From Spirochaetaceae bacterium (GTDB taxonomy: Bacteria > Spirochaetota > Spirochaetia > DSM-27196 > PWMO01): 40,623 bases of DNA. Both the position numbers and the translations under genes were made by a program. The notes under the pieces are model-generated. The model was not told where the DNA came from. It was given only the letters and a program-made list of their open reading frames with translations, and did not search any database. Every line of letters starts with the position of its first letter. The stretch's first letter is position 1. The DNA lies in contig REDW01000056.1 of NCBI GenBank assembly GCA_007693325.1, positions 1 to 40,623 of the forward strand. The letters are read 5' to 3'. Positions 2,840 to 34,485 of the stretch are shown here, piece by piece.

Positions 2840-2868
2840 TTGACAAGCGGAGGCAGACAAACTATAGT
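2840..2868 (+). promoter_or_regulatory. Sigma70-type promoter of the GntR-aldolase-kinase operon
   Basis: A perfect -35 box TTGACA (2840-2845) is followed by a 17-base spacer and a -10 box TATAGT (2863-2868, five of six consensus bases). Transcription would start near 2875, upstream of the GTG start at 2933. The -10 box lies within the 10-base palindrome AACTATAGTT. Confidence 0.8.
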
Positions 2869-2878
2869 TAAAAAAAGC

Positions 2879-2901
2879 GTGATATACTCATTGCATATCA
2901 C
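2879..2901. promoter_or_regulatory. Inverted-repeat operator candidate before the GntR gene
   Basis: Arms GTGATATAC (2879-2887) and GCATATCAC (2893-2901) form an inverted repeat with one mismatch and a 5-base centre (TCATT). The outer seven bases, GTGATAT and ATATCAC, match perfectly. The repeat lies from about +5 to +27 relative to the predicted start, a typical repressor position. It shares the 8-mer TGATATAC with the transketolase promoter region at 33583-33591. Autoregulation by the GntR protein encoded next is an inference. Confidence 0.6.
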
Positions 2902-2932
2902 TGAGGTAGACCGAGGGAGAGGGATAGACCAC

Positions 2933-3628: not shown

Positions 3629-3642
3629 TCGGGAGGATTGCC

Positions 3643-4518: not shown

Positions 4519-4553
4519 CGCCTCGGCCGCCGTTAGCTACAGGAGCAAGAGCA

Positions 4554-6216: not shown

Positions 6217-6217
6217 C

Positions 6218-9006: not shown

Positions 9007-9010
9007 AGGC

Positions 9011-9832: not shown

Positions 9833-9850
9833 CGCGTTGCTCCTTGGTGG

Positions 9851-11632: not shown

Positions 11633-13360
11633 CTACCTCACCAGATGGGTCAGCCGTTCGAGGATCATGCTATTCATAACGCTGTAGCCGTCGATGAACT
11701 GATCCAGGGTCTGGCGCACCGGCTTCCACGCCGCCACTGCTTCGTCATTCCCGTCCGCCAGGCTCAGAGGCTCTCTGGGGGCCGTTTCGGCGCCGTCTTC
11801 CTCGGTCCACCACGCCTGGCGGAACAGCTCGCTGGACAGCATTGTCCGTATGGCTTCAGCCGGAGTGGCATTCACCACACTGTTGCCGTCGATCTGCCGC
11901 GGATGGGCGTCCAGCGCACGCCTGACATTGGGAAACACCGTGATAGCCGGAACTCCCCACAGCTCGCTGATGTCGGGCAACCAGTCATCGTAGATCCGCA
12001 GCGAAGCAATAAGCAGCCGCACCCGGCTGCGATCGATGCCCATCCCGCCTTCGCTCACAGGGTTGTAGAGCCGCCGGAACGCCTTGCGTGCCACCGCAAC
12101 GCCGGCCCAGCGCGCGGCCTCTTCACCGCCGGTGACCCCGTTTGCCTTGAGCTCGTCGCGCACGGGAAACGCCAGTCTGCCGTTCATGATCGCGATATTG
12201 GAGACCAGCGCGTTGCTGTTGCGTATCACTTCGGCCACCGGGCACGTCTGAAACAGCGAGAACGTCAGCGTCACGGTCACACCGATCCCCAGGCGGGTAA
12301 GCTCGGCTGCGGCGTCCCTGCCGGCCGGGGTGGCGGGAACCTTGATGACGACATTCGGTATGCCCGAAAGCCGCGTGCGTAAGTCCTGGTAGACCTCTAC
12401 CGCCTGGCGCACCATGGCTGAGGCGTCGGCGTAGTTATCCGGGCTGACCTGCAGGTTGAGATAGCCCTCGCGGCCGTCTGTCATCAGGAAGATATCCCGC
12501 AGCAGACGGCAATTGCGCTCCACCACCGCGGTAGTCACCAGGGTGTTGATCCGGCGCAGCATAGCGTCACGATCGTCATCGGACTGCTGCAGCGCAGCGC
12601 GGATCTGCTGCAGATCGTAGCTGCCCCGAATGATGGCGTCTATGCGCGAGTCCCAGCCGGGCTTGTCGGTATCCCAGGCGAGCTTTATCAGCACCGGATT
12701 GGTTGTCTGCGAGCTGACGCCGACGCGCAGCGCATGGTCAAGAAACGCGGCGTAATCGTTGCCCAGTGCGGTGGTTGTCTCTCCGCTGAGGTACATCGCG
12801 GCGGCGCGGCGCATGTTGGATGACGCGTAGTAGCGCCACATGCCGCGCACGTAATCACCAAGACCGGAACCAAACGCTTCATTGGCGAGTCGCTGTGCCT
12901 CGGCCGCATCGGTGACCGCTTCGGCATGCAGGCGCGCCAGGAAGTCGGAGCGCTGCCGCTGCTGCAGCTCACCTGCCGTGGCGCTGTCGGCGCGGCTGAG
13001 GCGTTCGCACAACGACAGCACGCTGCCGGCGAGGTCGGCTTCAGGCTGCACTGCAGCGGATCGCCACGCCGGCAGAAAGCTGCCGAGATCCAGCGCCAGC
13101 TTGACGCAGAACTCCAGAATCTGCTGCCTGCGCGGCGCGCCGCTGTCGTGAAAACGCCCCGGCAACCGCTGCACCAGGCTATCGACAAGCGCTGCGCGTT
13201 CCGCAGGTTCAGCGCGGAAGATTACGTGTGCGGTTGCGTCGCTTATGCGGCCGTCATCGATGCGGTCCAGCAGGTCTTCCGACGGCTCTGCCGTGCGCCG
13301 GTTCCACTCGTCGCGAATCTCGGCCAGCTGCTCGGTTGGTGAAGTAACATTGATATTCAT
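11633..13360 (-). CDS. Transaldolase-like protein with long N-terminal extension
   Basis: 575-residue protein. Roughly residues 175-500 form a transaldolase-type barrel: [12 protein letters not shown] (about 217-228), LNLQVSPD (about 301-308), VVIKVPAT with the candidate Schiff-base Lys340, and [11 protein letters not shown]. The first 170 or so residues are helical, Ala/Arg/Glu-rich and resemble nothing I recognise. Classical transaldolase moves a dihydroxyacetone unit between sugar phosphates; members of this superfamily can also act as simple aldolases. The ATG at 13360 is chosen over 13366: it overlaps the previous stop as ATGA and sits 8 bases after GGAG. It lies inside a TRAP-uronate operon, which suggests action on a pathway intermediate rather than the pentose phosphate pathway. 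Confidence 0.75.
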
Positions 13361-14490
13361 GACCATAGCTCCAGGCCGTAGCGCTCGATAGCCTCCGGCC
13401 GCAGGGTTGTACCCGCCCCCGGCAGCCGCGGCAACGCGTAGTAGCCGGAGTCAACCACAATTGGTTCTTCAAAACAGTCCTTGATCCACGGAATGTACTC
13501 CAGGCGGGTAGCGGCGGGATGCGCGTAGCACAGATGTACGTGGACCTGTCCCATGTCTCCAACGTGCGGCACCACCGGCAGGTGATAGGCCAGCGCCAGG
13601 TCAGCGACCCTCAGCCACTCGGTGATTCCGGCCAGACGGGTCATATCGGGCTGCACCCAGTGGACCGCGCCGGCAGATATGAAATCGCGGAAACTGTCCA
13701 GGGTGTAGAGCTGCTCGCCCACGGCAATCGGTGTACGCATTGCCTGCGCCAGCCGGACGTGCCCCGGGAGGTCATCGTAGAATAGAGGCTCTTCAATCCA
13801 CAGAACGTCAAAGTCGGGCAACCGGGGAGCCACCGACAGTACGGTAGTCAGGTTCCAGCGTCCGTTGCAGTCAACAGCCAGCGTAGCGTCCGGTCCGATT
13901 GCCGCGCGCACCGCTTCTATGCGCCTGAGATCAGCGCGCGGATCATCGGTCCCGATTTTGATCTTCACGCCGCGGTAACCCTCACTCTGGACCAGCCTGC
14001 GGCAGTTGTCGGCAACCGTTTGACTGTCAAGACTCAACCAGCCGCCGTCGGTATTGTAGGCCTCCAGCCGGTTGCAGGTAGCGCCTCCCAGCAGCTTCCA
14101 CAGAGGCTGCTCGCTGGCTTTGGCTTTGATGTCCCACAGCGCGGTGTCAACAGCGGCAATTGCCAGATGCGTGATGCCGCTTCGGCCGACCCATTGAATC
14201 GGGGCGCAGTTGTACAGAGCACTCCACAGCCGCTGTACGTCACACGCGTCCTGGTCAATCAGAAGCGCGGCGTAGCAATCGCTGATACAGCTTGTTATCA
14301 GCCGGTCCGAGGCGAGATGGGCGTGCGTTCCGCTGAATCCGTAGCCGGTTATGCCGCCGGCGGTCCGGACTCGGGCACCCACTACGCCCCAGTGAGTTAG
14401 CGTGTGCGTGCTGTCCTGGATCATGTTGCCGGTTACCGGGACGTGCAGAATGAAGGGCTCAACCGCGATAATGGTTGTATCAGGTGACAT
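13357..14490 (-). CDS. Enolase superfamily (mandelate racemase subgroup) sugar-acid dehydratase
   Basis: 377-residue member of the mandelate racemase/muconate lactonising enzyme group with a complete active site: KxK base Lys176/Lys178 (GVKIKIG), metal ligands Asp207 (AVDCNGRW), Glu233 (WIEEP) and Glu259 (VGEQ), and the Asp282-His309 dyad (VQPD and VVPHVGD). Members with this set dehydrate aldonic or aldaric acids to 2-keto-3-deoxy acids, or epimerise them. The AYNTDGGWL segment occurs in sugar-acid dehydratases of this subgroup. It starts 4 bases after the alcohol dehydrogenase stop, with AGGAAT as ribosome-binding site. In this operon it could dehydrate the altronate-like product of the UxaB homologue, replacing the missing UxaA; that is an inference. 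Confidence 0.85.
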
Positions 14491-14494
14491 CGAA

Positions 14495-15532
14495 CTATTC
14501 CTGTGGTTGAAGCATAAGCTTCAATCCGGACTTGCTTTCAAACAGTTTGAACGCTTCTTCCCACCTGGTCAGCGGCAACTCGTGCGAAATCAGCGGATCG
14601 GTCTGAACCTGCCCGTCCGCCAGCAGCTGGATAGCGGCGAGCCACGAGCTGCGTTTTGATCCCAGCGATCCGCTGACCCTGAGCTCCTTGAAGCAGATCT
14701 TCTCGAAGTTCACCGATATCGGCTTGCCAAACAGCCCCACCTGAATGAATTGGCCCTGTTTGCGAATCAGGTTCAGCCCGCTATCAACCGCCGCGGCTGC
14801 CCCGGCACACTCCAACACCACGTCGACACCCTGTCCGTCGGTGACCTCGGCAACCAGTGCATCGAGATCTCCGCTGCTTACATCGATTGTGCGTTCTGCT
14901 CCCAGCTGAGCTGCTGCCCGCAGGCGATCATGGTCTATCGAGGAACCGGCCACAATGACCCGCGCCCCCTGAGCGCGCGCCACCTGCAGCGCCAGCAGGC
15001 CTATTGCCCCGGGGCCGGTCACCAGGACCCAGTCTTCGTGTTCTATGGTTGTCAGATCGATGGCGGCGTGGGTTACACACGCCAACGGTTCGAGCATAGC
15101 GCCGGCGCTGAAACCGACGTTATCCGGCAACCGGTGCACCCGATCTTCAGGTACCACCGTGTAGCGGGCAAACGCGCCGTTGTACCAGTACCCCAGCGTG
15201 CGCCGCTCGGGACAGAGGTTATAGAAACCGCTGCTGCAGTAACGGCACGTGCCACAGTAACTGAAGGCGGTCTCCGAGGTTACTCTGTCGCCCGGCGAGA
15301 AGCGCCTGACACCCGGTCCGACCTCAACCACCGTTCCGGCAAACTCGTGGCCGGTGACCACCGGTGGGTTGATTGGAATATCAATGTCATAGTGATAGAT
15401 GTGCAGATCAGAACCGCAGATTCCGGTGTTTGCAACTTTAATCTTTACCTGCTCCGGTCCCGCCTGAGGTTCTGCAACATCTCGGATCTGCATGTTGCCG
15501 GGGCCCTTGTCCGTCTTTACCAACGCCAGCAC
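14495..15532 (-). CDS. Zinc-dependent medium-chain alcohol (sorbitol/threonine-type) dehydrogenase
   Basis: 345-residue MDR enzyme. Catalytic zinc ligands are Cys39 (TGICGSD) and the GHE motif (His62, Glu63); the structural zinc site is formed by Cys93, Cys96, Cys99 and Cys107 (CGTCRYC...NLC). The Rossmann domain contains [13 protein letters not shown]. It belongs to the sorbitol/threonine/galactitol dehydrogenase branch and oxidises a secondary alcohol of a polyol or sugar acid with NAD(P). The start is GTG at 15532, with GGGAGGGATCA just before it. It lies 11 bases downstream of dctM, so it is cotranscribed with the transporter and probably acts early on the imported substrate. Confidence 0.9.
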
Positions 15533-15543
15533 TGATCCCTCCC

Positions 15544-16821
15544 CTATCCGAAGAACACGCCCGGAAGCCAGAGCGAGAGCGCCGGTACAAAAGTAACCAG
15601 CAGCAGCACAATCACCAGCGGTATGATGAAGACCGCGGTAGCCTTTGCACAGCGCTCAAACGGGATCTTGGCCACGCGCGACAGGACGTAGAGCACCATG
15701 CCAACCGGTGGTGTCAGCAGCCCGATCATCAGGTTGAGTATCATGAAGATTCCGAAGTGCACCGGGTCTACCCCGATCTGCAGCGCAATCGGCAGCAGAA
15801 CGGGCACCAGAATGGTGATCGCCGCGATAGTCTCCATGAAGAACCCGACGATGAACAGCACCAGGTTGAGCAGCAGCAGCAATACGATAGGGTTTTCGGT
15901 GATCGACAGCAGCAGCGCGGCAAAGTGACTCGGTACCTGCAGCCGCGTCAGAATCCAGGCAAAGATGGCCGCGCCTGCAACGATGAACAGAATGATTGCG
16001 GTAGTCTCGAGCGTGTCGATGCTGACCTGCATGATCTTCTTGAAGGTCAGTGTCCGGTAGATCAATGTCCCGAGGATCAAGGTATAGGCCGATGCTGCCA
16101 CCGCGGCCTCGGTTGGTGTGAAGACACCGAACGCAATTCCGCCGATGATGATCACCGGCGTCAGCAGCGAGGGAAAGCCACGCCACAGGCTTACCACCAT
16201 CTGACGCACGGTAAACCGCGCATCGCGCGGATAGTTGCGCTTGCGCGCGTACCACGCGATCAACACCATCAGCGACACACCCATCAGCAGCCCCGGTACA
16301 ATACCGGCAATGAACAGCCGCCCGATTGAGGCCTGCGCAATAACACCATAGATCACAAGCGGCAGGCTCGGCGGGATAATCGGACCGATGGTTGAAGAGG
16401 CGGCCGTAATAGCCACCGATATATCGGTGTCATAACCGGCATCAGTCATCGCCTTGATTTCGATTGTACCCAGCCCGCCGGCATCGGCAACCGCAGCGCC
16501 GGACATACCGGCAAAGATGATGCTGGCGCCGACGTTGACATGGCCCAGACCACCGCGCATCCAGCCTACAATCGAGCGTGCAAAGGCAAAGATGTGCGTG
16601 GTTAGCCCTGCGGCGTTCATCAGGTTGCCCGCCAGAATGAAGAACGGCACCGCCAGCAGCGGGAAACTGTTGACCCCACCAACCATGCGCTGCAGGATAA
16701 TGAAATCCGGTATGCGCTGCGCAAGGTAGACCCACAGCATCGAGGCGCCCCCGAGCGACATGGCAATAGGAACACCGATGATCAACATCACAAAGATTGA
16801 AATGAAAAGTACGGCTATCAC
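15544..16821 (-). CDS. dctM: TRAP transporter large permease subunit DctM
   Basis: 425-residue polytopic membrane protein, almost wholly hydrophobic, with about 12 predicted helices and the DctM family segments LAVPFFILAGNLMN, FAGMSGAAVADAGGLG, SSTIGPIIPPSLPLVIYG and LLTPPVGMVLYV. It is the ion-coupled transport subunit of a tripartite ATP-independent periplasmic transporter, which takes up carboxylates, sugar acids or related compounds with the help of sodium. It follows dctQ after 15 bases and is followed by the alcohol dehydrogenase gene. Length and order (P, Q, M) are standard. Confidence 0.95.
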   Translation of the reverse strand: MIAVLFISIFVMLIIGVPIAMSLGGASMLWVYLAQRIPDFIILQRMVGGVNSFPLLAVPFFILAGNLMNAAGLTTHIFAFARSIVGWMRGGLGHVNVGASIIFAGMSGAAVADAGGLGTIEIKAMTDAGYDTDISVAITAASSTIGPIIPPSLPLVIYGVIAQASIGRLFIAGIVPGLLMGVSLMVLIAWYARKRNYPRDARFTVRQMVVSLWRGFPSLLTPVIIIGGIAFGVFTPTEAAVAASAYTLILGTLIYRTLTFKKIMQVSIDTLETTAIILFIVAGAAIFAWILTRLQVPSHFAALLLSITENPIVLLLLLNLVLFIVGFFMETIAAITILVPVLLPIALQIGVDPVHFGIFMILNLMIGLLTPPVGMVLYVLSRVAKIPFERCAKATAVFIIPLVIVLLLVTFVPALSLWLPGVFFG

Positions 16822-16836
16822 TGGATTGCCCTCGCC

Positions 16837-17451
16837 TCAGATAGTGGGGGTATTGGGAGCAGTGGTGGCAGTGGGGTCACCACGGTCTTCGCGGCACATC
16901 GGAACATAGTTGTCTTTCCAGTGTCTGATAGCGAGCTGTACGGCACGAAACAGCATCAGCGCAAACCCGATCAGCACAATCGAGTAGACCGCTGCCAGCG
17001 GAATCCGGACGGTACTGAGGAAGTTGTTCATGGTTCTTGGTATGATACGGATTCCCAGGCGCACGCCAACAGCCAGGAACAGCACCCGAATCAGATCGAC
17101 CACGGTTACCAGTATTCGGCCAACCGTGCGCGGCATGTAGCGATAGAAGAACTCCACAAATATGTGCGAGTTGCGCCGAATTGCCATAACCGAACCGAGA
17201 AATGTCACGCACACCAGCAGGTAGCGCGCGCCTTCTTCGGTCCACGCAAATGAGAATCCGAGGAAGTAACGCGTGAAAAACTGCGAGAAGACGATCAATG
17301 CCAGGATCCAGAAGACCCCCAGCGCAACGTAGTCTTCAACCTTATAATCGCTATACGAGAAATCCGGCTCGGCGGCTGTCTGCTCTTTGATCAGCTCGAT
17401 CAACTCGTCGCTGCCGCTTACCCCTTCCGGCGGTGGGCTGTGGTCAGTCAT
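16837..17451 (-). CDS. dctQ: TRAP transporter small permease subunit DctQ
   Basis: 204-residue inner-membrane protein with about four transmembrane helices (VALGVFWILALIVFSQF, YLLVCVTFLGSVMAI, VVDLIRVLFLAVGVRL, VYSIVLIGFALMLF). The segment FAWTEEGARYLLV is the DctQ hallmark: a Trp-Thr-Glu-Glu cluster before the second helix. A charged N-terminal tail of about 45 residues and a proline-rich C terminus flank the membrane part. DctQ assembles with DctM and the binding protein DctP. AGGGG lies before the ATG. It is separated from dctP by about 100 bases that contain a strong stem-loop. Confidence 0.92.
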   Translation of the reverse strand: MTDHSPPPEGVSGSDELIELIKEQTAAEPDFSYSDYKVEDYVALGVFWILALIVFSQFFTRYFLGFSFAWTEEGARYLLVCVTFLGSVMAIRRNSHIFVEFFYRYMPRTVGRILVTVVDLIRVLFLAVGVRLGIRIIPRTMNNFLSTVRIPLAAVYSIVLIGFALMLFRAVQLAIRHWKDNYVPMCREDRGDPTATTAPNTPTI

Positions 17452-17504
17452 GGTTTCCCCTCGTCAGGTGACAGAATTTTGGTACACGGCGCGAGGCGGC
17501 AAAG

Positions 17505-17532
17505 CGGCCGGCCCGCACAAGCAGGCCGGCCG
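17505..17532. promoter_or_regulatory. Intercistronic stem-loop between dctP and dctQ
   Basis: Twelve-base arms at 17505-17516 and 17521-17532 (CGGCCGGCCCGC and GCAGGCCGGCCG) pair with one mismatch around an ACAA loop. No T tract follows in the direction of transcription. Position directly after the binding-protein gene suggests an mRNA-stabilising or partial-termination element that raises dctP expression over the permease genes. Confidence 0.6.
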
Positions 17533-17552
17533 ATGATTCGCTACAGCCGTGG

Positions 17553-18539
17553 TTAACGGATCTGCTGCATGCGGCTCAGGTGATCGGCGGACCAGGTAGC
17601 ATCCGGACCGGTCAGCATAGGCTCAACTGCATCCATGAACGGCTGCCGATCCACGTCTATCACGGTCAGGCCCTGCGCCTCAAACCATTCGCCGAGCTCG
17701 AGTTCCTCCTGATAGATAGCCTCCGAGCTGCGGACGGCCGCTTCATTGATGATTTCGGTGAAGATGGCCTGGTCTTCAGCGGACATCGCATCCCACAGGT
17801 CGCCGCGAACCACCGTCATCAGGGTGTTGGTCATATGACCGGTCAGGTTAATGTAATCCTGGACCTCGTAGAACGCCATACCGCGGATAGTCGGCAACGG
17901 GTTCTCCTGCGCCTCTACCACGCCCTGCTGCAGCGCCAGGTAGACCTCGGCAAACGCAACCGGTGTCGGGCTGGCGCCAACCGCGCGCGGGAACATCAGG
18001 TAGAGCGGCGCATCGGGAACGCGGATGCTGAGTCCCTGCATGTCAGCCGGAGTCCGAATCGGTCTATTGGAACTCACATGGCGAGTACCGTAGTAGGTTG
18101 GAGTAACGATGTGGTGCCCGGTAGCGTCTCGATAGCCGGCTGCCAGGTCTTCCATCAGATCGCTGTCGGCAAACGCCATCCAGTGGTCAAATCCGCGGAA
18201 CACAAACGGTGCCTCGGCAATAGCAATCGGTCCGTACGAACCGGAAAGAAACGCAGCGCCGGCGTAGATCATATCAACCGTTCCAAGTCCCAATCCTTCG
18301 GAAATCTCGGATTCACTGCCGAGCTGCGAGGCCGGGTATACCTGGATTGAATAGCGACCATCGGTGCGCGCGGCAATCTGGTCTGCCGCCCAGACGGCCT
18401 CCTGGTGGTACGGAAGATCGGGTTCGTAGACGTGAGCCCAGCTCAATTCCTGGGTTGCCGGTTCAGCCCTTCCGCCGGCAAATGCCAGTCCGCTGACGAC
18501 AATTATCAGCACAAGCGATAGTACGGTGAGTTTCTTCAT
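17553..18539 (-). CDS. dctP: TRAP transporter substrate-binding protein DctP
   Basis: 328-residue periplasmic binding protein with an N-terminal signal peptide (MKK..., hydrophobic core to residue 20, FAGGRAEP around the cleavage site). The DctP family region follows, including the carboxylate-binding Arg173 in SIRVPDAP and the VYLALQQGVVEAQENP segment. The Arg normally forms a salt bridge with the carboxylate of the ligand, so an acid substrate is expected; with UxaB, UxaE and sugar-acid dehydratase genes downstream, a uronate or other sugar acid is the best guess. The ATG at 18539 follows AAAGGGAGGC. An excellent promoter and an operator-like repeat lie upstream. Confidence 0.93.
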   Translation of the reverse strand: MKKLTVLSLVLIIVVSGLAFAGGRAEPATQELSWAHVYEPDLPYHQEAVWAADQIAARTDGRYSIQVYPASQLGSESEISEGLGLGTVDMIYAGAAFLSGSYGPIAIAEAPFVFRGFDHWMAFADSDLMEDLAAGYRDATGHHIVTPTYYGTRHVSSNRPIRTPADMQGLSIRVPDAPLYLMFPRAVGASPTPVAFAEVYLALQQGVVEAQENPLPTIRGMAFYEVQDYINLTGHMTNTLMTVVRGDLWDAMSAEDQAIFTEIINEAAVRSSEAIYQEELELGEWFEAQGLTVIDVDRQPFMDAVEPMLTGPDATWSADHLSRMQQIR

Positions 18540-18572
18540 GAAAGCCTCCCTTTGAGTGTTTGTAATATATAA

Positions 18573-18587
18573 GTTGTATACTACAAC
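18573..18587. promoter_or_regulatory. GntR-type operator candidate at the dctP promoter
   Basis: Perfect 6-base arms GTTGTA (18573-18578) and TACAAC (18582-18587) flank TAC. On the minus strand the site falls at about +1 to +15 of the predicted transcript. TTGTA...TACAA is the classic pattern for FCD-type GntR regulators of uronate and aldonate genes, which suits the operon. Which regulator binds is not shown. Confidence 0.6.
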
Positions 18588-18593
18588 GCTAGA

Positions 18594-18623
18594 AGTATAG
18601 GGCGTCCTGAGCTGATCTGTCAA
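18594..18623 (-). promoter_or_regulatory. Sigma70-type promoter of the TRAP-uronate operon
   Basis: On the minus strand, TTGACA (18623-18618) is followed by an 18-base spacer and TATACT (18599-18594). Five of six -10 bases and all six -35 bases match consensus. Transcription would start near 18588, just before the palindrome at 18573-18587. This makes dctP the start of its own transcript, separate from the ALDH/Ldh2/E1 genes upstream. Confidence 0.8.
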
Positions 18624-18684: not shown

Positions 18685-20052
18685 TCACTGCACCCAGACA
18701 CCCTTGATATTGACAAACTCGCGGATTCCGAAATGGGAGAGCTCCCGGCCGTAGCCGCTGCCCTTGATGCCGCCAAACGGCAGCCGCGGATCCGAGCGCA
18801 CAAACTGGTTGACAAATACGCATCCCGCGTCTATCTGCTCCTCGGCGATACGGGCGGCACGCTCGGTATCAGCACTGAACACGGCACCGCCGAGGCCAAA
18901 GAAGGTGTCATTGGCAACCTCGGTAGCCTGGGCCTCGTCCGTGACCCGGATTACTGCGGCCACCGGACCGAAGAGCTCGTCGTCATAGGCGGGCATTCCC
19001 TTGCGCACGTTTGACAGCACGGTTGCCGGGTAGTACGCGCCGCGAGATGCGGGGATCTCGCCACCGAGCAGGCAGCGTGCCCCGCGCTCGATACTCTGCC
19101 GCACCTGAGCGTGCAGTTCATCACGCAGATCGACGCGCGCCTGCGGCCCGATATCGGTAGCTTCATCCATCGGATCACCCATCAGCTTTGCCGCCATCTG
19201 CTCGACAAACATCTGCTCAAAGCGGTCGGCAATCGCTTCCACTACGATGAAGCGCTTACCGGCAATACAGCTCTGACCGGAGTTGAACAGTCGCGCGGTC
19301 ACGCACATCGGTACCGCCTGCTCCAGATCGGCGTCCGCCAGTATCACGTACGGATCGCTTCCACCCAGCTCCAGCACGCACTTCTTGAGCTGCTCACCGC
19401 ATTTGCTGCCGATGGCCCGCCCCGCGGGTGTACTGCCGGTCAGGGTCACCGCCGCGACCGCCGGATGCTCGATTACCGCGGCAACCTGGCCACTGCCGAT
19501 CACCAGGGTGCGGAAGACATCCTCCGGCAGCCCTGCGTCACTCAGGAGCGTTTCGATTGCCAGGGCACAACCGGTAACGTTTGAGGAGTGCTTGAGGACA
19601 ATGCAGTTACCGGCCATCAGGGCGGCCGCGCCAAATCGAAAGAACTGCCAGAAGGGAAAATTCCACGGCATGACAGCCAGAATTACCCCCAGCGGCTGGT
19701 AGCTGACAAAACTTCGGCTGGCTTCGGTCGGCGCATCTTCCTGCTCGAGAAAGCGCTCGGCGTTCTCGGCGTAGTATTCGCAGACCCAGGCGCACTTCTC
19801 GATCTCGGCCCGGCTGTCGCGAATGGGCTTTCCCATCTCTTGGGTCATCAACGCTGCGTACTGGCCGCTACGGCGGCGCAGCAGGTCGGCGGTTTGCTTG
19901 AGTACGGCGCCGCGCTCGGCAAAGGAGCTGCGGCGCCAGCTGGCAAAGCGCTCACCGCAGGCCGTCACAGCTGCGGCAACCTCTTCAGGACGAAACTCCG
20001 CGTACTCACGGATTGTCTCGTTGGTAGCTGGATTGATCGATACCAGTGCCAT
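18685..20052 (-). CDS. Aldehyde dehydrogenase, succinate-semialdehyde dehydrogenase-like
   Basis: 455-residue NAD(P)-dependent aldehyde dehydrogenase. Motifs in order: PWNFPFWQ (about 129-136), the Rossmann TGSTPAGRAIG, catalytic Glu228 in LELGGSDP and catalytic Cys262 in NSGQSCIAGKR, then DELFGPVAAV and PFGGIKGSGYGRE. The short N terminus and PWNFPFWQ fit the Sad/YneI-like branch of succinate-semialdehyde dehydrogenases, which oxidise small acid semialdehydes. The ATG at 20052 follows AAGGAG; it begins 3 bases after the Ldh2 stop, so it is translated with that gene. It would oxidise the aldehyde formed by the upstream reductase/E1 pair; this is an inference. Confidence 0.9.
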   Translation of the reverse strand: MALVSINPATNETIREYAEFRPEEVAAAVTACGERFASWRRSSFAERGAVLKQTADLLRRRSGQYAALMTQEMGKPIRDSRAEIEKCAWVCEYYAENAERFLEQEDAPTEASRSFVSYQPLGVILAVMPWNFPFWQFFRFGAAALMAGNCIVLKHSSNVTGCALAIETLLSDAGLPEDVFRTLVIGSGQVAAVIEHPAVAAVTLTGSTPAGRAIGSKCGEQLKKCVLELGGSDPYVILADADLEQAVPMCVTARLFNSGQSCIAGKRFIVVEAIADRFEQMFVEQMAAKLMGDPMDEATDIGPQARVDLRDELHAQVRQSIERGARCLLGGEIPASRGAYYPATVLSNVRKGMPAYDDELFGPVAAVIRVTDEAQATEVANDTFFGLGGAVFSADTERAARIAEEQIDAGCVFVNQFVRSDPRLPFGGIKGSGYGRELSHFGIREFVNIKGVWVQ

Positions 20053-20055
20053 CAA

Positions 20056-21150
20056 TTACTCCTTGTCAAACCGGGCGGCAAGCTCGTCGGTCAGGCCGGT
20101 CTGCTCGGCCACGTTGAATAGATTGATCAGGACGTAGTCCGGAAGCTGCAACCCCTGCCGGTAGGCTGCATCGCGGCGTTCCCATTCCATCTCACCGGGC
20201 ATGTAGATGCGCTCTGCTCCCTCTGCCAGCGGCGCGGATCGCACTTCCTGGATCATGGCGTCCATGCGCGCCTTGAACGTCTCCACCCCCATAAGGCTTT
20301 CGATATTCACTGCGATGAACGCGTGGCCCTCATCGGCAGGTTCGGGATCCGGCGCCAGCCACGGCTTCACGCCCGAGAGAAAGGAAGCTCCGGTCAGCAC
20401 GCCCGACAGGATCTCGATCATCAGCGCCAGACCGTAGCCCTTATGACCGGACATCGGCAGAATAGCACCCTTGTCCGGGTAGGTGCTGGTATCGGTGGTC
20501 GGGCGTCCGCGATCGTCCACCAGCCAGCCCTCGGGAATCGGCTTGCCAGCAGTCTTGGCCGCGATAACCTTGCTGATAGCCACCACGCTGGTAGCGATAT
20601 CGAGGAACACCGTGCGCTCTGTGCCGGCGGGAACCGCGTACGCCAACGGGTTGGTACCGATGACCGGGGCGCGCGCACCGGGAACGGTCATGCAGACATC
20701 CACGTTGGTCATCGAGAGGCCGATCATGTCCTGATCTGCCGCCATTACGGCGTAGTAGCCCGCAGCTCCGTAATGACCGCTGCGGCGCACCGCGGCGTAG
20801 GCGATACCCGCGCTGCGCGCCTTGTCGATGGCCGCCTGCATTGCCAGCCGCGACGTAACCATCGGCATGGCAAAGTGGCCGTCCACCACCACAAAGCCGC
20901 TGCCCTGATCGACAATCTCGGGCTGCGCATCAGCCTTGAGCCCGCCTTTACGCAGATTGTTCAACAGCGGCACAAGCTGCCGGCTTCCGTGACTGAAGGT
21001 TCCCCAGGTATCGGTGGTCACCAGTACTTCGGCGGTCTGCTCGGCGTGTTGGCGCGACAGTCCGGATGCCTCTATCGCCTCCACACAGAAGCTCTTCAGT
21101 TTGTCCGGGTGGATTCGCGCATCGGCAAATTCGAGTGCGGGGTTACTCAT
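20056..21150 (-). CDS. Ldh2/YiaK-type malate/L-lactate dehydrogenase family oxidoreductase
   Basis: 364-residue NAD(P)-dependent oxidoreductase of the Ldh2 (malate/L-sulfolactate/2,3-diketogulonate) family, which is unrelated to classical lactate dehydrogenase. Features: catalytic His in FSHGSRQL (about residue 54), RRSGHYGAAGYYAVMA, GTNPLAYAVPAG, LDIATSVVAISKV and SGHKGYGLALMIEILSGVLTG. Members interconvert 2-oxo acids and 2-hydroxy acids; YiaK acts on 2,3-diketo-L-gulonate and is paired with a TRAP transporter, which parallels the nearby dctPQM. AGGAGAGGACCT precedes the ATG. It lies 30 bases after the E1 fusion gene and 3 bases before the ALDH gene. Confidence 0.88.
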   Translation of the reverse strand: MSNPALEFADARIHPDKLKSFCVEAIEASGLSRQHAEQTAEVLVTTDTWGTFSHGSRQLVPLLNNLRKGGLKADAQPEIVDQGSGFVVVDGHFAMPMVTSRLAMQAAIDKARSAGIAYAAVRRSGHYGAAGYYAVMAADQDMIGLSMTNVDVCMTVPGARAPVIGTNPLAYAVPAGTERTVFLDIATSVVAISKVIAAKTAGKPIPEGWLVDDRGRPTTDTSTYPDKGAILPMSGHKGYGLALMIEILSGVLTGASFLSGVKPWLAPDPEPADEGHAFIAVNIESLMGVETFKARMDAMIQEVRSAPLAEGAERIYMPGEMEWERRDAAYRQGLQLPDYVLINLFNVAEQTGLTDELAARFDKE

Positions 21151-23402: not shown

Positions 23403-24578
23403 TTATCGTGGATCCGCATCGGACTTGCCGGGAGGGACTACGTAGAGACCGGCCGCCTCTCTTCGGCCGGGCATGATGAACTGCTGCTTCGGAGCTGAAT
23501 CTTGTTGCTCCAGTCTAGCCATAATCTCGCCATCAAAGGTAATACCGAGGCCGGGAGACTCTCCCGGAATCAACCAGCCGTCCTTTATCTCATGATCGAC
23601 AGTGAATCCTACTTCCATTCCCGCATTGACGATTTCAATCATCATATGATTCGGCAGCGCCGCAGCGAAATGCCCCATGAAGTTCCCGGGAGTGTTCATC
23701 ACGCATACTGGAATCTCGAATGCATAGGCGAGTTCCGCGACATGCAGGGCCCCGGTTATACCGGAGGTATAGTTGCCAATCTCAACAATGTCCATCGAGC
23801 CGGCCGTAAGATGAGGGACAAACTCCGGAACATCCTTAAGGTTCTCACCGCTCGCTACGGCTGCCTTAATACTGTCCGAGACTTTCTTCAGGCCGCGTGC
23901 GTCCCATCGCCCCGCGGGCTCTTCCGCCCAGAGGAGGCTGAACTCACACTCGATTTCTCTGATTCGGCGAATGGCCTCCTTGGCCGACCAATACTCATTC
24001 GAATCTATTGCAAGTTCTACCCTCTCCCCACTCTTCGCTAAGGCGTCACGCATCACGGCCAGTCGTATTAGGTCACTTTCCTGATCAAGGCCGACTTTCA
24101 GCTTGCCTGCAGAAATTCCCAGCCCGGCCATCTCTTCATAGAAGAAACGGATTTCGTCATTTGAGAGGCAGAGCCCGATTTCGCTCGCGTATGCTTTTAC
24201 CCGCGGATTCGACGCGCCCAGAGTTCTGTAGAGCGGCTCAGCGTTGCACTTTGCCTTGAGATCCCAGAGCGCAAGATCCAGCCCCGCGATTGCCTCGCTT
24301 GCCACGCCTCTATTGCCGCTCTTGAAGACATGGTCCACCAGCTGCTTCCAGAGGCCCCGCACTCCGCGCGGGTCTTGGCCATGAAGGAGCGGCGCCAGCC
24401 GATGAATCATCTGTTCAGCGGCCGGTAATGTAATTGCCGTGCCAGTCAATCCGTCGTCAGTACTTATTGCAACTGCAAGATGAGCCCACTCCTTCTGACC
24501 GTATGGGAAATTTGCATCCGCCAGAGGCCGCTGACTCTTATACGGATACGCCAGCGTCTTCACTCCCGTGATCTTCAT
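23403..24578 (-). CDS. Enolase superfamily protein with atypical active site
   Basis: 391-residue mandelate-racemase-group protein. The capping domain (MKITGVKTLAYPY) and barrel are intact: KxK Lys159/Lys161 (GKLKVG), metal ligands Asp192 (IDSNEYW), Glu219 (WAEEP) and Glu245 (SGEN). The His-Asp dyad is not visible: the strand that normally reads V-Q-P-D reads VEIGN, and the usual P-H is replaced by M-N at Asn295 (CVMNTPGN). It may therefore catalyse only KxK-dependent chemistry such as a one-base dehydration or epimerisation. The ATG at 24578 follows AGGAG; the longer frame is spurious. It is 26 bases downstream of the ABC permease genes and the last gene of the AT-richer cassette, so its substrate is probably what that ABC system imports. 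Confidence 0.82.
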   Translation of the reverse strand: MKITGVKTLAYPYKSQRPLADANFPYGQKEWAHLAVAISTDDGLTGTAITLPAAEQMIHRLAPLLHGQDPRGVRGLWKQLVDHVFKSGNRGVASEAIAGLDLALWDLKAKCNAEPLYRTLGASNPRVKAYASEIGLCLSNDEIRFFYEEMAGLGISAGKLKVGLDQESDLIRLAVMRDALAKSGERVELAIDSNEYWSAKEAIRRIREIECEFSLLWAEEPAGRWDARGLKKVSDSIKAAVASGENLKDVPEFVPHLTAGSMDIVEIGNYTSGITGALHVAELAYAFEIPVCVMNTPGNFMGHFAAALPNHMMIEIVNAGMEVGFTVDHEIKDGWLIPGESPGLGITFDGEIMARLEQQDSAPKQQFIMPGRREAAGLYVVPPGKSDADPR

Positions 24579-24604: not shown

Positions 24605-25465
24605 CTACCCTTTGACGGCACCCGCAGTCAAGCCTGCCGTCATATACTTCTGAATGAACATGAACAGAACGATCGCCGGAATAGAACTCACAACGCCACC
24701 AGCGGTCAACAAGCCCCAGTTCAGTACATGCTGACCGATAAGCGTCGCCAGACCGACCGGAAGGGTCCGGCTTGCGAGGCTGCGGGTAAACGTTACGGCA
24801 AACAGGAATTCGTTCCAAGCGTAGATAAATATGTAGATCAGCGTCGCGGCCATCGCCGGCGCAGCTAGTGGCAGAGTAATGCGCACAAACGCCATGCCGT
24901 GCGTACAGCCGTCCACCATCCCGGACTCTTCAAGTTCGTGCGGGATGGAATTGAAGAAGCCAGTCAACATCCAGCAGCAGAAAGGAATTGCGTACGTTGA
25001 ATACGCGATGATCAAGGCCAGGTAGGTATCAAGCAGCTGAAGACTTCGGAAGATCACGAATAATGGTATCAACAGGAGCACTATCGGAAACATGTTCAAG
25101 GTCAGGAAGAGCAACATAACCATTCCGCGGCCGCGGTATCTAAACCGTGAGACACTGTATGCTGCGCTGGTTGAAAGTACCAGCGAGAACAGTGCAGCTC
25201 CGCTCGAAACGAAGAGACTGTTCCGAAAATAGGCTGCAAATGGCAGTGTGCGAAAGAGACTTCGGTAATGCTCCAGCGTAGGCTCAATCGGCAGATAACG
25301 AATCCGCAGCGTTATAATCTCGCTAGCAGGCTTGATGGACGTAATGATCGTCCAGATAATCGGCAACAGTAGAAACAGCAGGAAAAGTAAGAGGGGAAGG
25401 TAGAGACCTATCAATCTATGGCCAGCGCTCTCCATTCCTTGATGGGCGTGGCGCTTGGGCGTCAT
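24605..25465 (-). CDS. ABC sugar transporter permease, MalG-type
   Basis: 286-residue inner-membrane permease with about six helices and the EAA loop LEESGMVDGCTHGMAFVRITLPLAAP that contacts the ATPase. YLPIEPTLEHYRSLF after the first helix and YAWNEFLFAVTF near the end are typical of carbohydrate uptake family 1 (MalG/UgpE). It pairs with the preceding MalF-type permease, whose stop overlaps its start as ATGA. No ATPase gene is in the window, so a shared MsmK/UgpC-type ATPase encoded elsewhere probably energises the system. Base composition is AT-richer than in genes 18685-23355. Confidence 0.92.
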   Translation of the reverse strand: MTPKRHAHQGMESAGHRLIGLYLPLLLFLLFLLLPIIWTIITSIKPASEIITLRIRYLPIEPTLEHYRSLFRTLPFAAYFRNSLFVSSGAALFSLVLSTSAAYSVSRFRYRGRGMVMLLFLTLNMFPIVLLLIPLFVIFRSLQLLDTYLALIIAYSTYAIPFCCWMLTGFFNSIPHELEESGMVDGCTHGMAFVRITLPLAAPAMAATLIYIFIYAWNEFLFAVTFTRSLASRTLPVGLATLIGQHVLNWGLLTAGGVVSSIPAIVLFMFIQKYMTAGLTAGAVKG

Positions 25466-26355
25466 AGGATGCCCTCCTTTCTGGCACGGCCAATGTACAT
25501 AAGAACAACCAGCATCAGAAAAAGGGTAAGAAAGATAGATAATGCCGCAGAATAGCCGTAATTGAGAGTACTTCTGGCAGTCATAAAAGTATATACTGAA
25601 AGAACTTGCGTGCTGTATCCAGGCCCTCCCTCGGTCATCAGATAGATGAGATCAACGAAGTTTGCCGTCCAGATGATACGCAGAAGTGTTGTAGTGACAA
25701 TCACCGGCATAATAACCGGCACTGTAACGTATAACAACTGTTGCCACCCCCTGGCTCCGTCCATTCTGGCCGCTTCGTAAAGGTCGTCGGGAACCGCCTG
25801 CAATCCAGCCAGCAGCATGAGCGCGAAAAACGGCATGCCGCGCCAAACCGTGGTGAGTATGACCGCCGACATCGCAGTATCAGCCCTCGATAGCCACGCA
25901 ATTCGTTCGGACAGAATTCCAAGTCGCAACAGAACATCGTTTATCAACCCGTAGTTGGCGTTAAACAACCAGCGCCACATGAACGCACCCAGTACGCCCG
26001 GAATGACCCACGGGATCAGCATCAGGTTCTTGGACAACGTTGACAATAGTGACCGCTTATTCAGGACCAGGGCAAGACCCAACCCCAACAAGAACTGAAA
26101 CCCGACCGAAGCGAATACGTAGACCGCCGTGTTGCGCAATGACAACCAGAAAACCTCGTCTTGTATCGCACGAACGTAGTTTCCCAAGCCGATGAATCCA
26201 ATGTCAGCGGGCCTCATCAGTGAATAGCTCTGGAACGACATGATAACCGCACGAAGGATCGGATACGCAATGACACCGGCAATCGCAAGGAACGCCGGCA
26301 ACAAGAGCAGGTAAGGTGACACCTTTCGTTGTTGTGGGTAACTCAGGCCAAACAC
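25462..26355 (-). CDS. ABC sugar transporter permease, MalF-type
   Basis: About 297-residue inner-membrane permease with six helices, carbohydrate uptake family 1 (MalF/UgpA). The EAA loop reads YEAARMDGARGWQQLLYVTVPVIMP; NLMLIPWVIPGVLGAFMWRWLFN and LIYLMTEGGPGYSTQVLSVYTF are family segments. GTG at 26355 is preferred as start because GGAG lies 8 bases upstream; a TTG at 26388 has no ribosome-binding site and would begin next to the stem-loop at 26399-26427. It overlaps the MalG-type gene by 4 bases. Confidence 0.9.
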   Translation of the reverse strand: MFGLSYPQQRKVSPYLLLLPAFLAIAGVIAYPILRAVIMSFQSYSLMRPADIGFIGLGNYVRAIQDEVFWLSLRNTAVYVFASVGFQFLLGLGLALVLNKRSLLSTLSKNLMLIPWVIPGVLGAFMWRWLFNANYGLINDVLLRLGILSERIAWLSRADTAMSAVILTTVWRGMPFFALMLLAGLQAVPDDLYEAARMDGARGWQQLLYVTVPVIMPVIVTTTLLRIIWTANFVDLIYLMTEGGPGYSTQVLSVYTFMTARSTLNYGYSAALSIFLTLFLMLVVLMYIGRARKEGIL

Positions 26356-26398
26356 TTTTGCTGCTCCATAACTGGATCCTCGGTGCAAGAATTGCAGG

Positions 26399-26445: not shown

Positions 26446-27717
26446 TTATTGTCGCCCTTCGACCGTTCGAGCGAACTGTTCCATCATTTCTTCGACACTT
26501 ATCTCCCCGATCAGTGCGCGCTGGAAATTTGCCGGCCACGACTGTTCCCAGAACTCGCCCAGTGTCTCGATGTACGGCGGGTTATACGCAAAAGCCGTCG
26601 ATTCAGCAGCCGTTCGAGCAAAGCGGTTCTCTGCGAAGTAAGGTTCCACTTCTTCGACATTCTCAACCACAGGGATTGCGCCTACATACCGACCATAAAA
26701 AGCCGCCTGCTCCGGCTCCGTCATCCACGAGACAAACGTAAAAGCAGCATCTTTGTGTTGTGAGTCTCTCGCTATGACGTAATGATGCATACCAGCTTCA
26801 ACCCAGCGTTCACCATTGACTGAAGGCATCTTGGATATACCCACGGCATCATCGCCAAGTGCCGCGACGTGGCCTTCGGCGCTCATGATATGATGCACCA
26901 GCATCCCCGTCAGGCCGCTCTGAAACCCTTCAATTATTTCGGAGAACCCATCACTGGGAGCGCTCGGAGGTGTCACCCCATGTTCACGGAACAGATCAAC
27001 ATACCATCTTGCGGCTTCAATTGCCTCAGGACGTCGAAAAGTACTACGCCCATCGGCATCGAACCACTGATTGTCGACGGCAGGGAGTACGAACGAGAGC
27101 ATCATACCAGTTCCGCCGCGCGCGCCTCGCATTCCGAAGCCGTAGGCGCCGTCGATCTCTTCGCTTATCCGCTTAGCCGCTTCCAGAAAGTCTTCGCGCG
27201 TCTCCGGAGGATCCAGTCCCAGCTGTTCAAACCAGTCAGCGCGATAGTAAAGGTACCCTGGCAACGTCATAATTGGAACACCAAAAATTGGTTCATCCGG
27301 TGCCGCCCTAGAACCTTCCCATGCGACATCGACAATTTGATCAGCTCCGGGCCACTCAGCGACGTAATCATCCAGCGGTTCAAGCACACCCATTTCCCAG
27401 AAAGCGCTACCCCACGCAGGTGTTGCGTAGAAGATCACGTCTGCCGCGTCTCCGGCAACCAACGAGGTTGTGTACAGGTCGTAAGCTCCACCCCACGGGA
27501 CAAGCTCAAATTCCACTTCAATGTCCGGATGCTCTTGATTGAACCGATCGATCAAGTCATAGAAATAAGGCTCGTCAGGAGCATCCAAGTGCTGCCAAAG
27601 GCGGATATGCCGCACTTCATCTTCCACCGGTTCGGCGCGACCGCCTGCAAACATAACCACGCTCGACACAAAAAGAAAGACTGTGCCAATCGCCACTATT
27701 CTCCACATCTTTTCCAT
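26446..27717 (-). CDS. ABC sugar transporter solute-binding protein, family 1
   Basis: 423-residue periplasmic binding protein. The signal peptide (basic MEKMWR, hydrophobic core, FAGGRAEP at about 23-30) lacks a lipobox Cys. The mature part has the family 1 pattern IRLWQHLDAPDEPYFYDLIDRFNQEHPDIEVEF, DVIFYATPAW, YRADWFEQLGLDPPETREDFLEAAKRI and a C-terminal FVSWMTEPEQAAFYGRY. It captures a sugar, oligosaccharide or sugar derivative for the two permeases downstream. AAGGAGG lies before the ATG at 27717. It is divergent from iclR with a 308-base regulatory gap and has its own candidate promoter. Confidence 0.92.
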   Translation of the reverse strand: MEKMWRIVAIGTVFLFVSSVVMFAGGRAEPVEDEVRHIRLWQHLDAPDEPYFYDLIDRFNQEHPDIEVEFELVPWGGAYDLYTTSLVAGDAADVIFYATPAWGSAFWEMGVLEPLDDYVAEWPGADQIVDVAWEGSRAAPDEPIFGVPIMTLPGYLYYRADWFEQLGLDPPETREDFLEAAKRISEEIDGAYGFGMRGARGGTGMMLSFVLPAVDNQWFDADGRSTFRRPEAIEAARWYVDLFREHGVTPPSAPSDGFSEIIEGFQSGLTGMLVHHIMSAEGHVAALGDDAVGISKMPSVNGERWVEAGMHHYVIARDSQHKDAAFTFVSWMTEPEQAAFYGRYVGAIPVVENVEEVEPYFAENRFARTAAESTAFAYNPPYIETLGEFWEQSWPANFQRALIGEISVEEMMEQFARTVEGRQ

Positions 27718-27900: not shown

Positions 27901-27928
27901 TTGACAACCGCTTGTACTGCGCTAAAAT
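27901..27928 (+). promoter_or_regulatory. Candidate promoter of iclR
   Basis: TTGACA (27901-27906), a 16-base spacer and TAAAAT (27923-27928, five of six -10 bases). The start would be near 27935, which excludes the in-frame start codons at 27912 and 27927 and supports the ATG at 28026, leaving a leader of about 90 bases. Confidence 0.65.
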
Positions 27929-28025
27929 GGTAGCATGCTGTCTCAATCATTACGACGTTTTTTGGAGCGGTCACCGGGATACCTGCTGTGGCGCTACGCG
28001 AAGCCCGACAAATTCGTCACTGACT

Positions 28026-28835
28026 ATGAAGGTTAGAAGTGTAAAACGCATATTCGACATCGTTGAGGCTCTCTCGATGAGTCGATCCGGAATGACCTTG
28101 GCAGAGCTCAGCGCAACTCTTGAACTGCATCGAAGCACAGTGCACCGTTTTTTGACCGATCTCGCCGAACGCGGCTACGTCGACAAGGACCGTGATTCCA
28201 GTCATTACAGGCTTGGACTACGCTTTATTGAGCTTACCGGCGTCTACCTCGACAACGTCGAGCTGAAGACCGAAGCCCGTCCGCATCTCGTCTCCTTGTC
28301 TAATCGGAGCGGCCACACCGCTTTTATCGCTTTCCTGGATGGCTCTGAGGTTGTTTACATCGACAAGGCTGAACAGCAACAAAGCCTGCGAAGATACTCA
28401 ATAGTCGGAACGCGAGCCCCATTATACTGCACGGCACTGGGTAAGGCCCTGCTCATGAGCATGAGCGACGCAGAGTTCGAACGCGCTGTCCATGCGGCTA
28501 AACTTGCGCGCTTGACGCGCAACACTATTACCTCAGTCGACGAACTCGTCGCTGAAATCAGCCGCAGCCGCGAACGCGGTTGGGCCATGGACAACTGCGA
28601 GCGTTATGACGACATACGTTGCGTTGCGGCACCTATCCTCGACTATCGCCGGCAACCGATCGCCGCAGTCAGTGTATCGGATTACGCAAGAAATCTTCCT
28701 TTGGAAGAAATGCCGGTCCTGGGCAACATGGCAAGAGAGACCGCCGGCGTTATCTCGCGCCTCATGGGCTATACGGACCGCACGGGCAGAAACACGTTAC
28801 TCGGCGGGCAAGACCAGGACACACCAATTCTATGA
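28026..28835 (+). CDS. IclR family transcriptional regulator
   Basis: 269-residue regulator. The N-terminal winged HTH (SVKRIFDIVEALS, MTLAELSATLELHRSTVHRFLTDLAERGYV, then SHYRLGLRF) covers residues 5-70; the C-terminal IclR effector domain includes VVYIDKAE, APLYCTALGKALLMSM, RERGWAMDNCERYDDIRCVAAPI and AAVSVSD. IclR proteins often control sugar-acid and aromatic-acid catabolism. It is divergent from the ABC operon and probably its local regulator. The start has no clear Shine-Dalgarno sequence but is the only start codon after the predicted promoter. Its stop overlaps the end of the convergent VOC gene by 6 bases. Base composition matches the ABC cassette. Confidence 0.88.
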   Translation: MKVRSVKRIFDIVEALSMSRSGMTLAELSATLELHRSTVHRFLTDLAERGYVDKDRDSSHYRLGLRFIELTGVYLDNVELKTEARPHLVSLSNRSGHTAFIAFLDGSEVVYIDKAEQQQSLRRYSIVGTRAPLYCTALGKALLMSMSDAEFERAVHAAKLARLTRNTITSVDELVAEISRSRERGWAMDNCERYDDIRCVAAPILDYRRQPIAAVSVSDYARNLPLEEMPVLGNMARETAGVISRLMGYTDRTGRNTLLGGQDQDTPIL

Positions 28836-33693: not shown

Positions 33694-34440
33694 CTACCAC
33701 TCGCCGTTGGTCTTAAACCGTCGCCGCGTGTTTTCGCGAAACCGCGCCCCGGCGTCGCGAATGGCGTCCAGCGTTTCCTGATGCGTGCGCCCAGCGCTGC
33801 CGCGCGCGGCGGCAATCATGGTTTCGCACTCGTTGTTGTCCATGAACAGCACCGCGTCCAGCAGTCCTTCCTGATCCTGCGGCGGAATGACGAAGAAGCC
33901 GTGTTTGTCGGCGTGAATCAGACTGCCGGGTTCAATCGTACAGCCAAAGACCGTGACCGGGCAATTCCATCTGACCGGTGCCGAGTAAGCGTGGCCGACG
34001 CACAGCCGCGACGCCAGCGCCTTGAATCCGGCGTTGGTCATCTCGTCAACGTCGCGTATGGCGCCGTCGGTGATTGTACCAACGCAACCTAACGCGCGGT
34101 GGACGTTGCTGTTCACCTCGCCCCAGAACGCTCCAACAAAGTCCGGCTTGTCCAGATCCTGAACCACCACAATCTTGGGCCCCGGCACCGAGGCAACGTA
34201 GTGCCGGTACTCGCTACCCGCGTTGGGATTGCGCCTGGGCGGCTCGGGGTCGCTGGCCTGCTGTACTACAGTCACCGCGTAGCCGATCATCGGTCCCATC
34301 TGCGGCATGAAATCGCGTGTCTCTTCGCGGTTGAACAGTGCGGCCATGCGCTCGCTGGAACTCATTGCCTCCCAGCCGTTGTAAATCGACGGGGTGTTCC
34401 AGCGTTTGAGCTTCAACAGAACGTCGTGTGACAGTGGCAT
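33694..34440 (-). CDS. RraA-like (4-hydroxy-4-methyl-2-oxoglutarate aldolase family) protein
   Basis: 248-residue RraA/HMG-aldolase-family protein. The metal- and substrate-binding segment is GEVNSNVHRALGCVGTITDGAIRDVDEM, with Arg129 and Asp130 at the usual catalytic and metal positions. The fold covers most of the chain; N-terminal LKRWNTPSIYNG is the usual first segment. Members cleave 4-hydroxy-2-oxo acids to pyruvate or decarboxylate oxaloacetate; true RraA inhibits RNase E and is shorter (about 160 residues), so an enzymatic role is more likely here. AAGGAGGAG precedes the ATG. It is 45 bases downstream of the URO-D-like gene. Confidence 0.82.
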   Translation of the reverse strand: MPLSHDVLLKLKRWNTPSIYNGWEAMSSSERMAALFNREETRDFMPQMGPMIGYAVTVVQQASDPEPPRRNPNAGSEYRHYVASVPGPKIVVVQDLDKPDFVGAFWGEVNSNVHRALGCVGTITDGAIRDVDEMTNAGFKALASRLCVGHAYSAPVRWNCPVTVFGCTIEPGSLIHADKHGFFVIPPQDQEGLLDAVLFMDNNECETMIAAARGSAGRTHQETLDAIRDAGARFRENTRRRFKTNGEW

Positions 34441-34485
34441 GAATCGACTCCTCCTTGTAATGTGAGTACCCGCTGCCCGGGCGTG

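Follow-up and report, generated by a model that had tools for sequence, protein, structure and literature searches.

A dyad-less branch of the mandelate racemase subgroup with conserved catalytic lysines and metal ligands

The enolase-superfamily protein P0001, encoded in a 40,623-nucleotide stretch of DNA from a Spirochaetaceae bacterium (contig REDW01000056.1, referred to as the window), belongs to a clade in which the His-Asp dyad of the active site is missing throughout. In an alignment of 89 proteins, Asp at position 268 and His at position 294 occurred in 0 of the 45 clade members, while both were present in 44 of the 44 others. The one-sided active site that an initial annotation read from P0001 is thus real; the loss extends across the clade and is no accident of this one gene. 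P0001 is probably a metal-dependent dehydratase of acid sugars within the mandelate racemase branch, one-sided and acting on 2S substrates by means of Lys161. The clade offers a direct test of whether one base suffices for acid-sugar dehydration in this subgroup and of where the acid comes from.

The P0001 protein and its active site

P0001 (391 aa) is encoded on the minus strand by an open reading frame at 23403-24578; the plus strand is interrupted by stops. Matches to Pfam MR_MLE_C (E 9.3e-34) and MR_MLE_N (E 9.2e-11) give it the N- and C-terminal domains of the mandelate racemase subgroup, a barrel with a capping domain. No NCBIfam model reached its cut-off for P0001. The best, L-talarate/galactarate dehydratase (NF047820), scored 146.8 bits and cis-3-hydroxy-L-proline dehydratase (NF043002) 51.3 bits, each against a required 500. 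By sequence, 2og9 (E 1.6e-29) was the best match among solved structures. The AlphaFold2 model (pLDDT 92.4, pTM 0.91) was overlaid on mandelate racemase 1mns with a Z of 43.3 and an rmsd of 1.9 over 343 residues, and on L-fuconate dehydratase 1yey with a Z of 39.5 and an rmsd of 2.2 over 348 residues. Since this confident model superimposes on mandelate racemase, the fold is predicted to be intact where the dyad has been lost.

Alignments bear out the initial annotation in that P0001 keeps Lys159 and Lys161 (GKLKVG) at the end of beta2 and all three metal ligands, Asp192, Glu219, and Glu245; the beta8 Glu (Glu315) is kept as well. The dyad Asp is absent at the motif VEIGN, as had been noted: Gly268 occupies its beta6 column, and no Asp occurs anywhere in residues 264-275. 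The dyad His is likewise absent, with Met294 (Pro290+4) in the beta7 column and no His in residues 289-300. Asn295, which had been taken for the dyad His position, is the next residue, so that this assignment was off by one. P0001 therefore has no His-Asp dyad at beta7/beta6. Residues 263-277 (DIVEIGNYTSGITGA) contain no Lys, whereas a Lys at the end of beta6 is the defining feature of the muconate lactonising enzyme subgroup.

The contrast drawn with the neighbouring protein P0002 (Table 1) holds, as its motifs VKIKIG, VDCN, EEP, GEQ, VQPDM, and VPH make up the full catalytic set. P0002 is very close to the Agrobacterium structures 3tj4/4h19 (E 4.5e-147 for 3tj4) and has a TRAP transporter (DctM) and a zinc alcohol dehydrogenase as neighbours (13357-18623).

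Table 1. Coordinates of P0002 and of the genes surrounding P0001 in the window.
Feature	Coordinates	Strand	Best match or remark
IclR-type regulator, divergent	27912..28835	+	IclR_C 2.5e-45
ABC sugar substrate-binding lipoprotein	26446..27717	-	weak family matches
Second ABC permease, apparent same operon	25462..26388	-	BPD_transp_1 5.5e-21; clusters with relatives' sugar ABC permeases
Sugar ABC permease, MalG-like, apparent same operon as P0001	24605..25465	-	MalG model E 1.9e-38, below cut-off
Fused E1 alpha/beta 2-oxoacid dehydrogenase, directly downstream of P0001	21181..23355	-
Ldh_2 dehydrogenase (malate/L-lactate/sulfolactate type)	20056..21150	-	PF02615 7.6e-113
Aldehyde dehydrogenase	18685..20055	-	succinate-semialdehyde type best, below cut-off
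P0002, enolase-superfamily protein with full dyad	13357..14490	-	best solved relative 3tj4/4h19

Extent of the dyad-less clade

The 89 aligned proteins consisted of 80 loci, P0001, P0002, L004, and six plasmid hits. The loci came from an alignment-based scan with two peptide patterns, one of them including RWD, across GTDB genomes, and the best 80 of 587 were kept, which makes the clade size a lower bound. The plasmid records were found by tblastn with P0001 as query (E <= 1e-30). Four of the six, with 37.8-39.6% identity over 89-100% of the query, were without the dyad, while those of Geobacillus and Priestia (31.5-32.8% identity) had it. Within the clade, the Asp column was occupied by Gly in 27 of 45 members and otherwise by Ala or Ser, and the His column by Met in 8 of 45 and otherwise by Val or Ile.

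In a maximum-likelihood tree of 87 rows, from which the dyad-bearing rows shorter than 320 aa (L074 and L076) were left out and in which the root serves for drawing only, the 45 dyad-less proteins fell on one side of a branch with a support of 100/100. Long branches were found outside the clade. Subclade B (36 rows, support 100/98) comprises Actinomycetota and Pseudomonadota, and subclade A (9 rows, support 91/96) comprises Chloroflexota including SAR202, Gemmatimonadota, Actinopolymorpha, and P0001, which pairs with the Actinopolymorpha protein L012 (support 97/88). The clade thereby spans four named phyla and the window's own phylum. In that phylum, 296 genomes were drawn and two gave matches at E <= 1e-30, namely P0001's own genome and one with the dyad-bearing L004. 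Lipoprotein ends with the sequence GGRAEP point to a spirochaete.

Three residues, Lys86, Arg224, and Trp225, occurred in all 45 clade members and in none of the 44 others. Glu195 and Arg17 were equally constant in the clade and occurred in one (L079) and four of the 44 proteins outside, respectively. P0001 carries all five marks, as do the copies read from two further genomes found by profile (L125 and L126), where the longest fitting ORF per locus, and thus one copy of each tandem pair, was read. Conservation of Arg224-Trp225-Asp226 was partly selected for by the RWD pattern, while Lys86, Glu195, Arg17, and the dyad columns were absent from the scan patterns. Lys159, Lys161, Asp192, Glu219, Glu245, and Glu315 were found in 45 of 45 members, so that the KxK motif and the three acidic metal ligands of the mandelate racemase subgroup are complete throughout. 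The conservation of the metal ligands, both lysines, Glu315, and the clade marks argues for a working enzyme.

No solved clade member was found, as the overlays listed gave identities of 21-30% and sequence searches returned no close hit. The initial annotation had envisaged that P0001 might group with a characterised family that naturally lacks the dyad. A naturally dyad-less family it is, while no characterised member was found in it, and no description of a mandelate racemase branch without the dyad came up in the literature listings searched.

Gene context of the subclades

Models of neighbour families were derived from the loci of the clade, and every locus was screened with them to a distance of 8 kb, with 42 dyad-bearing loci as controls (L004 and the P0002 neighbourhood were left out). 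The neighbours of subclade B were a beta-helix/GH141-like protein, present at 24 of 36 B loci and none of the 42 controls (p 1.6e-11), an aldo/keto reductase (AKR; 17 vs 2, p 1.2e-5), an L-fuconolactonase-like amidohydrolase (16 vs 2, p 3.3e-5), GH95 (6 vs 0, p 0.0076), and a mutarotase (9 vs 2, p 0.019). FAH proteins, at 8 of 36 B loci and 4 of 42 controls (p 0.21), were not significant alone. All of these p values are generous, as the models derive from B itself and the B rows are related. At least one of AKR, lactonase-like protein, mutarotase, and FAH occurred at 20 of 36 B loci, 5 of 42 controls, 1 of 9 A loci, and not at the window, and at least two occurred at 15 of 36 B loci and 2 of 42 controls. 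The single A locus was L016, with the lactonase-like protein alone; L016 and L018, also of subclade A, are accompanied by sulfatases.

At the thresholds used, the only NCBIfam match of the B amidohydrolase was L-fucono-1,5-lactonase, below cut-off (E 5.2e-52 at L024 and 1.2e-43 at L046). The best model for the B FAH proteins was 2,4-didehydro-3-deoxy-L-rhamnonate hydrolase, where scores of 453.5 and 433.6 bits fell short of the 500 required. In the relatives, none of the lactonase, FAH, and mutarotase models reached the NCBIfam cut-offs. The stretch around L046 in Brevundimonas combines a divergent GntR-FCD regulator, the dyad-less enzyme, AKR, the lactonase-like protein, MFS and TonB transporters, SDR, and an FAH hydrolase, and the dyad-less enzyme is the only dehydratase recognised there. 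These contexts, in which fucosidase-like genes are frequent neighbours along with the AKR, the lactonase-like protein, and the mutarotase, suggest that subclade B occupies the slot of L-fuconate dehydratase. The apiosidase-like gene at L046 and the GH95 and GH141-like genes of B would also fit a release of L-galactose, so that L-fuconate is not separated from L-galactonate, and one or the other is the most likely substrate of subclade B.

Two dyad-bearing controls from Rhodobacterales, L054 and L055, stand in the same AKR/mutarotase/FAH context. Two enzyme types may accordingly fill one pathway slot, and these loci argue against a one-to-one link between dyad loss and pathway. Beside P0001's tree sister, an IlvD/EDD dehydratase lies directly adjacent at 9237-10955 of L012; it scored above the cut-off of the dihydroxy-acid dehydratase subfamily and just below that of the L-arabinonate dehydratase model.

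Proposed mechanism and alternatives

The reaction, base, acid, and stereochemistry that we infer for P0001 would start from a divalent metal coordinated by Asp192, Glu219, and Glu245, which would stabilise an enediolate. Lys161, together with Lys159, would take the C2 proton from a 2S-configured aldonate. In place of the lost His, another residue would help the 3-OH to leave, and the clade-specific Lys86 is the candidate. In the AlphaFold2 model, Lys86 sits in a break between two capping-domain helices (84-91), and its placement near the substrate is presumed. Alternatively, Lys161 could do both jobs in a syn elimination. In the mandelate racemase subgroup, as in mandelate racemase and the L-fuconate dehydratase FucD, 2S substrates are served by the Lys of the KxK motif and 2R substrates by the His of the dyad. 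L-fuconate and L-galactonate are both 2S, and an enzyme with the Lys side alone would therefore suit them. Of the two consequences proposed in the initial annotation, altered stereochemistry is reasonable on this rule, as only the Lys side remains for 2S-type substrates. A new reaction finds no support, as the sister-subclade enzyme often stands in the slot of an ordinary dehydratase in a non-phosphorylating fucose-type pathway.

Four other readings were weighed against a Lys161-based dehydratase. A one-base reaction other than dehydration, in which, e.g., an anhydro-sugar acid or a lactone would be cycloisomerised by Lys161 as the only base, has a small chance of being correct. The best Foldseek matches include 5xd9 (3,6-anhydro-L-galactonate cycloisomerase) and 4hpn (a proposed galactarolactone cycloisomerase), and such a reaction may do without a second acid to assist a departing hydroxyl. 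However, 5xd7 has QPD and CTH at the dyad places (CTN in 5xd9) and is thus of the dyad type, and the B neighbours fit a series of aldose oxidation, lactonase, dehydratase, keto-deoxy-acid dehydrogenase, and hydrolase. The same dehydratase-type context speaks against a 1,1-proton-transfer epimerase or racemase with Lys86 as second base in place of the His. The restriction of Lys86 to the clade and its location in the helix break agree with this reading, but it presumes the position of Lys86 relative to the substrate, and we regard it as improbable.

Half of the catalytic pair is gone, as might be expected of a catalytically dead or regulatory paralog, but the invariance of the three metal ligands and both lysines makes this quite improbable. 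Moreover, no second family ORF was clustered at 38 of 44 clade loci in the stretch covered, while six loci had two ORFs. The least credible reading is that the role of the dyad His is taken by His303, named in the initial annotation as a possible substitute in the same position, or by some other His. Although His303 is present in all 45 aligned clade members, it also occurs in 32 of the 44 dyad-bearing proteins, where it looks like an older structural residue, and it is replaced by Gln in two further clade paralogs, the tandem partners of L015 and L017; it is thus a poor stand-in. Only some members (L018, L022-L026, and L030) have other His residues close to beta6/beta7, and a beta6 His present in L094 and L126 is not conserved across the clade. 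Second enolase-superfamily ORFs were located at 10560-11948 of L033, 1614-2771 of L047, and 5390-6433 of L018. Tandem clade pairs were observed in SAR202-type genomes at 6711-9167 of L015, 6765-9170 of L017, and as L125/L128 and L126/L129.

Comparison with characterised enzymes and SAR202

The clade shares its fold, the beta2 KxK, the three metal ligands, and the beta8 Glu with members of the mandelate racemase subgroup, e.g., 1mns and the talarate/galactarate dehydratases 2pp0 and 2og9/3cb3. It differs from them by the absence of the beta6 Asp and beta7 His and by the five marks of its own, and its beta6 stretch is usually shorter, by one residue in A and by two in B. Its identity to the mandelate racemase and L-talarate/galactarate dehydratase structures is 24-30%. 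FucD from Xanthomonas campestris (1yey/2hne/2hxt/2hxu) has the same fold (Z 39.4-39.5) and, by gene context, the same pathway slot as subclade B, and it has the His-Asp dyad. FucD partitions the D-arabinonate enediolate between dehydration and 2-epimerisation (PMC6336799). As partitioning of this type should need both sides, the dyad-less branch is predicted to dehydrate only, without 2-epimerisation.

L-rhamnonate dehydratase (RhamD; 2oz3, 3fxg), a one-sided member of the same subgroup that keeps the His side and is without KxK, would be the mirror image of the dyad-less clade. In galactarate dehydratase II of Oceanobacillus (GalrD-II), the base is a Tyr/Arg pair at the place of KxK and the general acid is Tyr90 of the capping domain; its residue number is roughly that of Lys86. 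A broader scenario is conceivable, if distinctly tentative. Dyad-bearing ancestors may have given rise to a separate, widespread lineage that gave up the His-Asp side, acquired the capping-domain Lys86 as general acid, and became strictly 2S-specific, non-epimerising, and a mirror image of RhamD. It would have taken over the L-fuconate/L-galactonate step in actinobacteria and sphingomonads, while P0001 and the SAR202 and Gemmatimonadota members would act on other 2S sugar acids.

The function of the many SAR202 enolase-superfamily paralogs is debated (PMC6946804, PMC10444878), and the dyad-less clade touches this question. Cultivated SAR202 strains are reported to carry 80 enolase-superfamily genes and to grow better with L-fucose, L-rhamnose, and the corresponding acids (PMC10444878); roles in chiral organic matter had been proposed earlier (PMC6946804). 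The main text of PMC6946804 does not contain the word "dyad", and the papers combining "dyad", "enolase superfamily", and "fuconate" did not include PMC10444878. In a profile search of 79 genomes of the SAR202 order (E <= 1e-70), at least four had clade members with one or two copies each, a lower bound as only 24 candidates were scored in many genomes, and a fifth match, L127, has the dyad. A large share of dyad-less proteins among the SAR202 paralogs is not supported by this search.

Genes around P0001 in the window and in its genome

The operon of the window comprises the ABC transporter genes, P0001, the fused E1, the Ldh_2 dehydrogenase, and the aldehyde dehydrogenase (Table 1). In one putative reading, the keto-deoxy acid product of P0001 would be cleaved to pyruvate and a hydroxy-aldehyde, which would pass through the aldehyde dehydrogenase, Ldh_2, and E1 to acetyl-CoA, with a putative aldolase among the genes further off. 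An L-fucose gene cluster was considered for the window itself, and none of the fucose-type set lies there. L-fucose is not a strong guess for P0001, because its own genome gave no GH29 match and no L-fuconolactonase match, the latter in a search whose controls were also without signal, so that absence is not implied. Outside the window, the genome holds two mutarotases of the RhaM type that exceed the cut-off and one FAH match that stays under it.

Elsewhere in the window, a hexuronate-type cluster (2840-11626) includes a tagaturonate reductase above cut-off, a UxaE-like epimerase, an FGGY kinase, a class II aldolase, a GntR-FCD regulator, and a DapA-like protein below cut-off. It is followed at 11633-13366 by a 577-aa protein whose first 200 residues are without a match and whose residues 216-508 match transaldolase/fructose-6-phosphate aldolase (PF00923, 4e-25), with no NCBIfam match at 1e-30. 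At 33694-35643, an RraA-like aldolase (PF03737) adjoins a URO-D family protein (PF01208).
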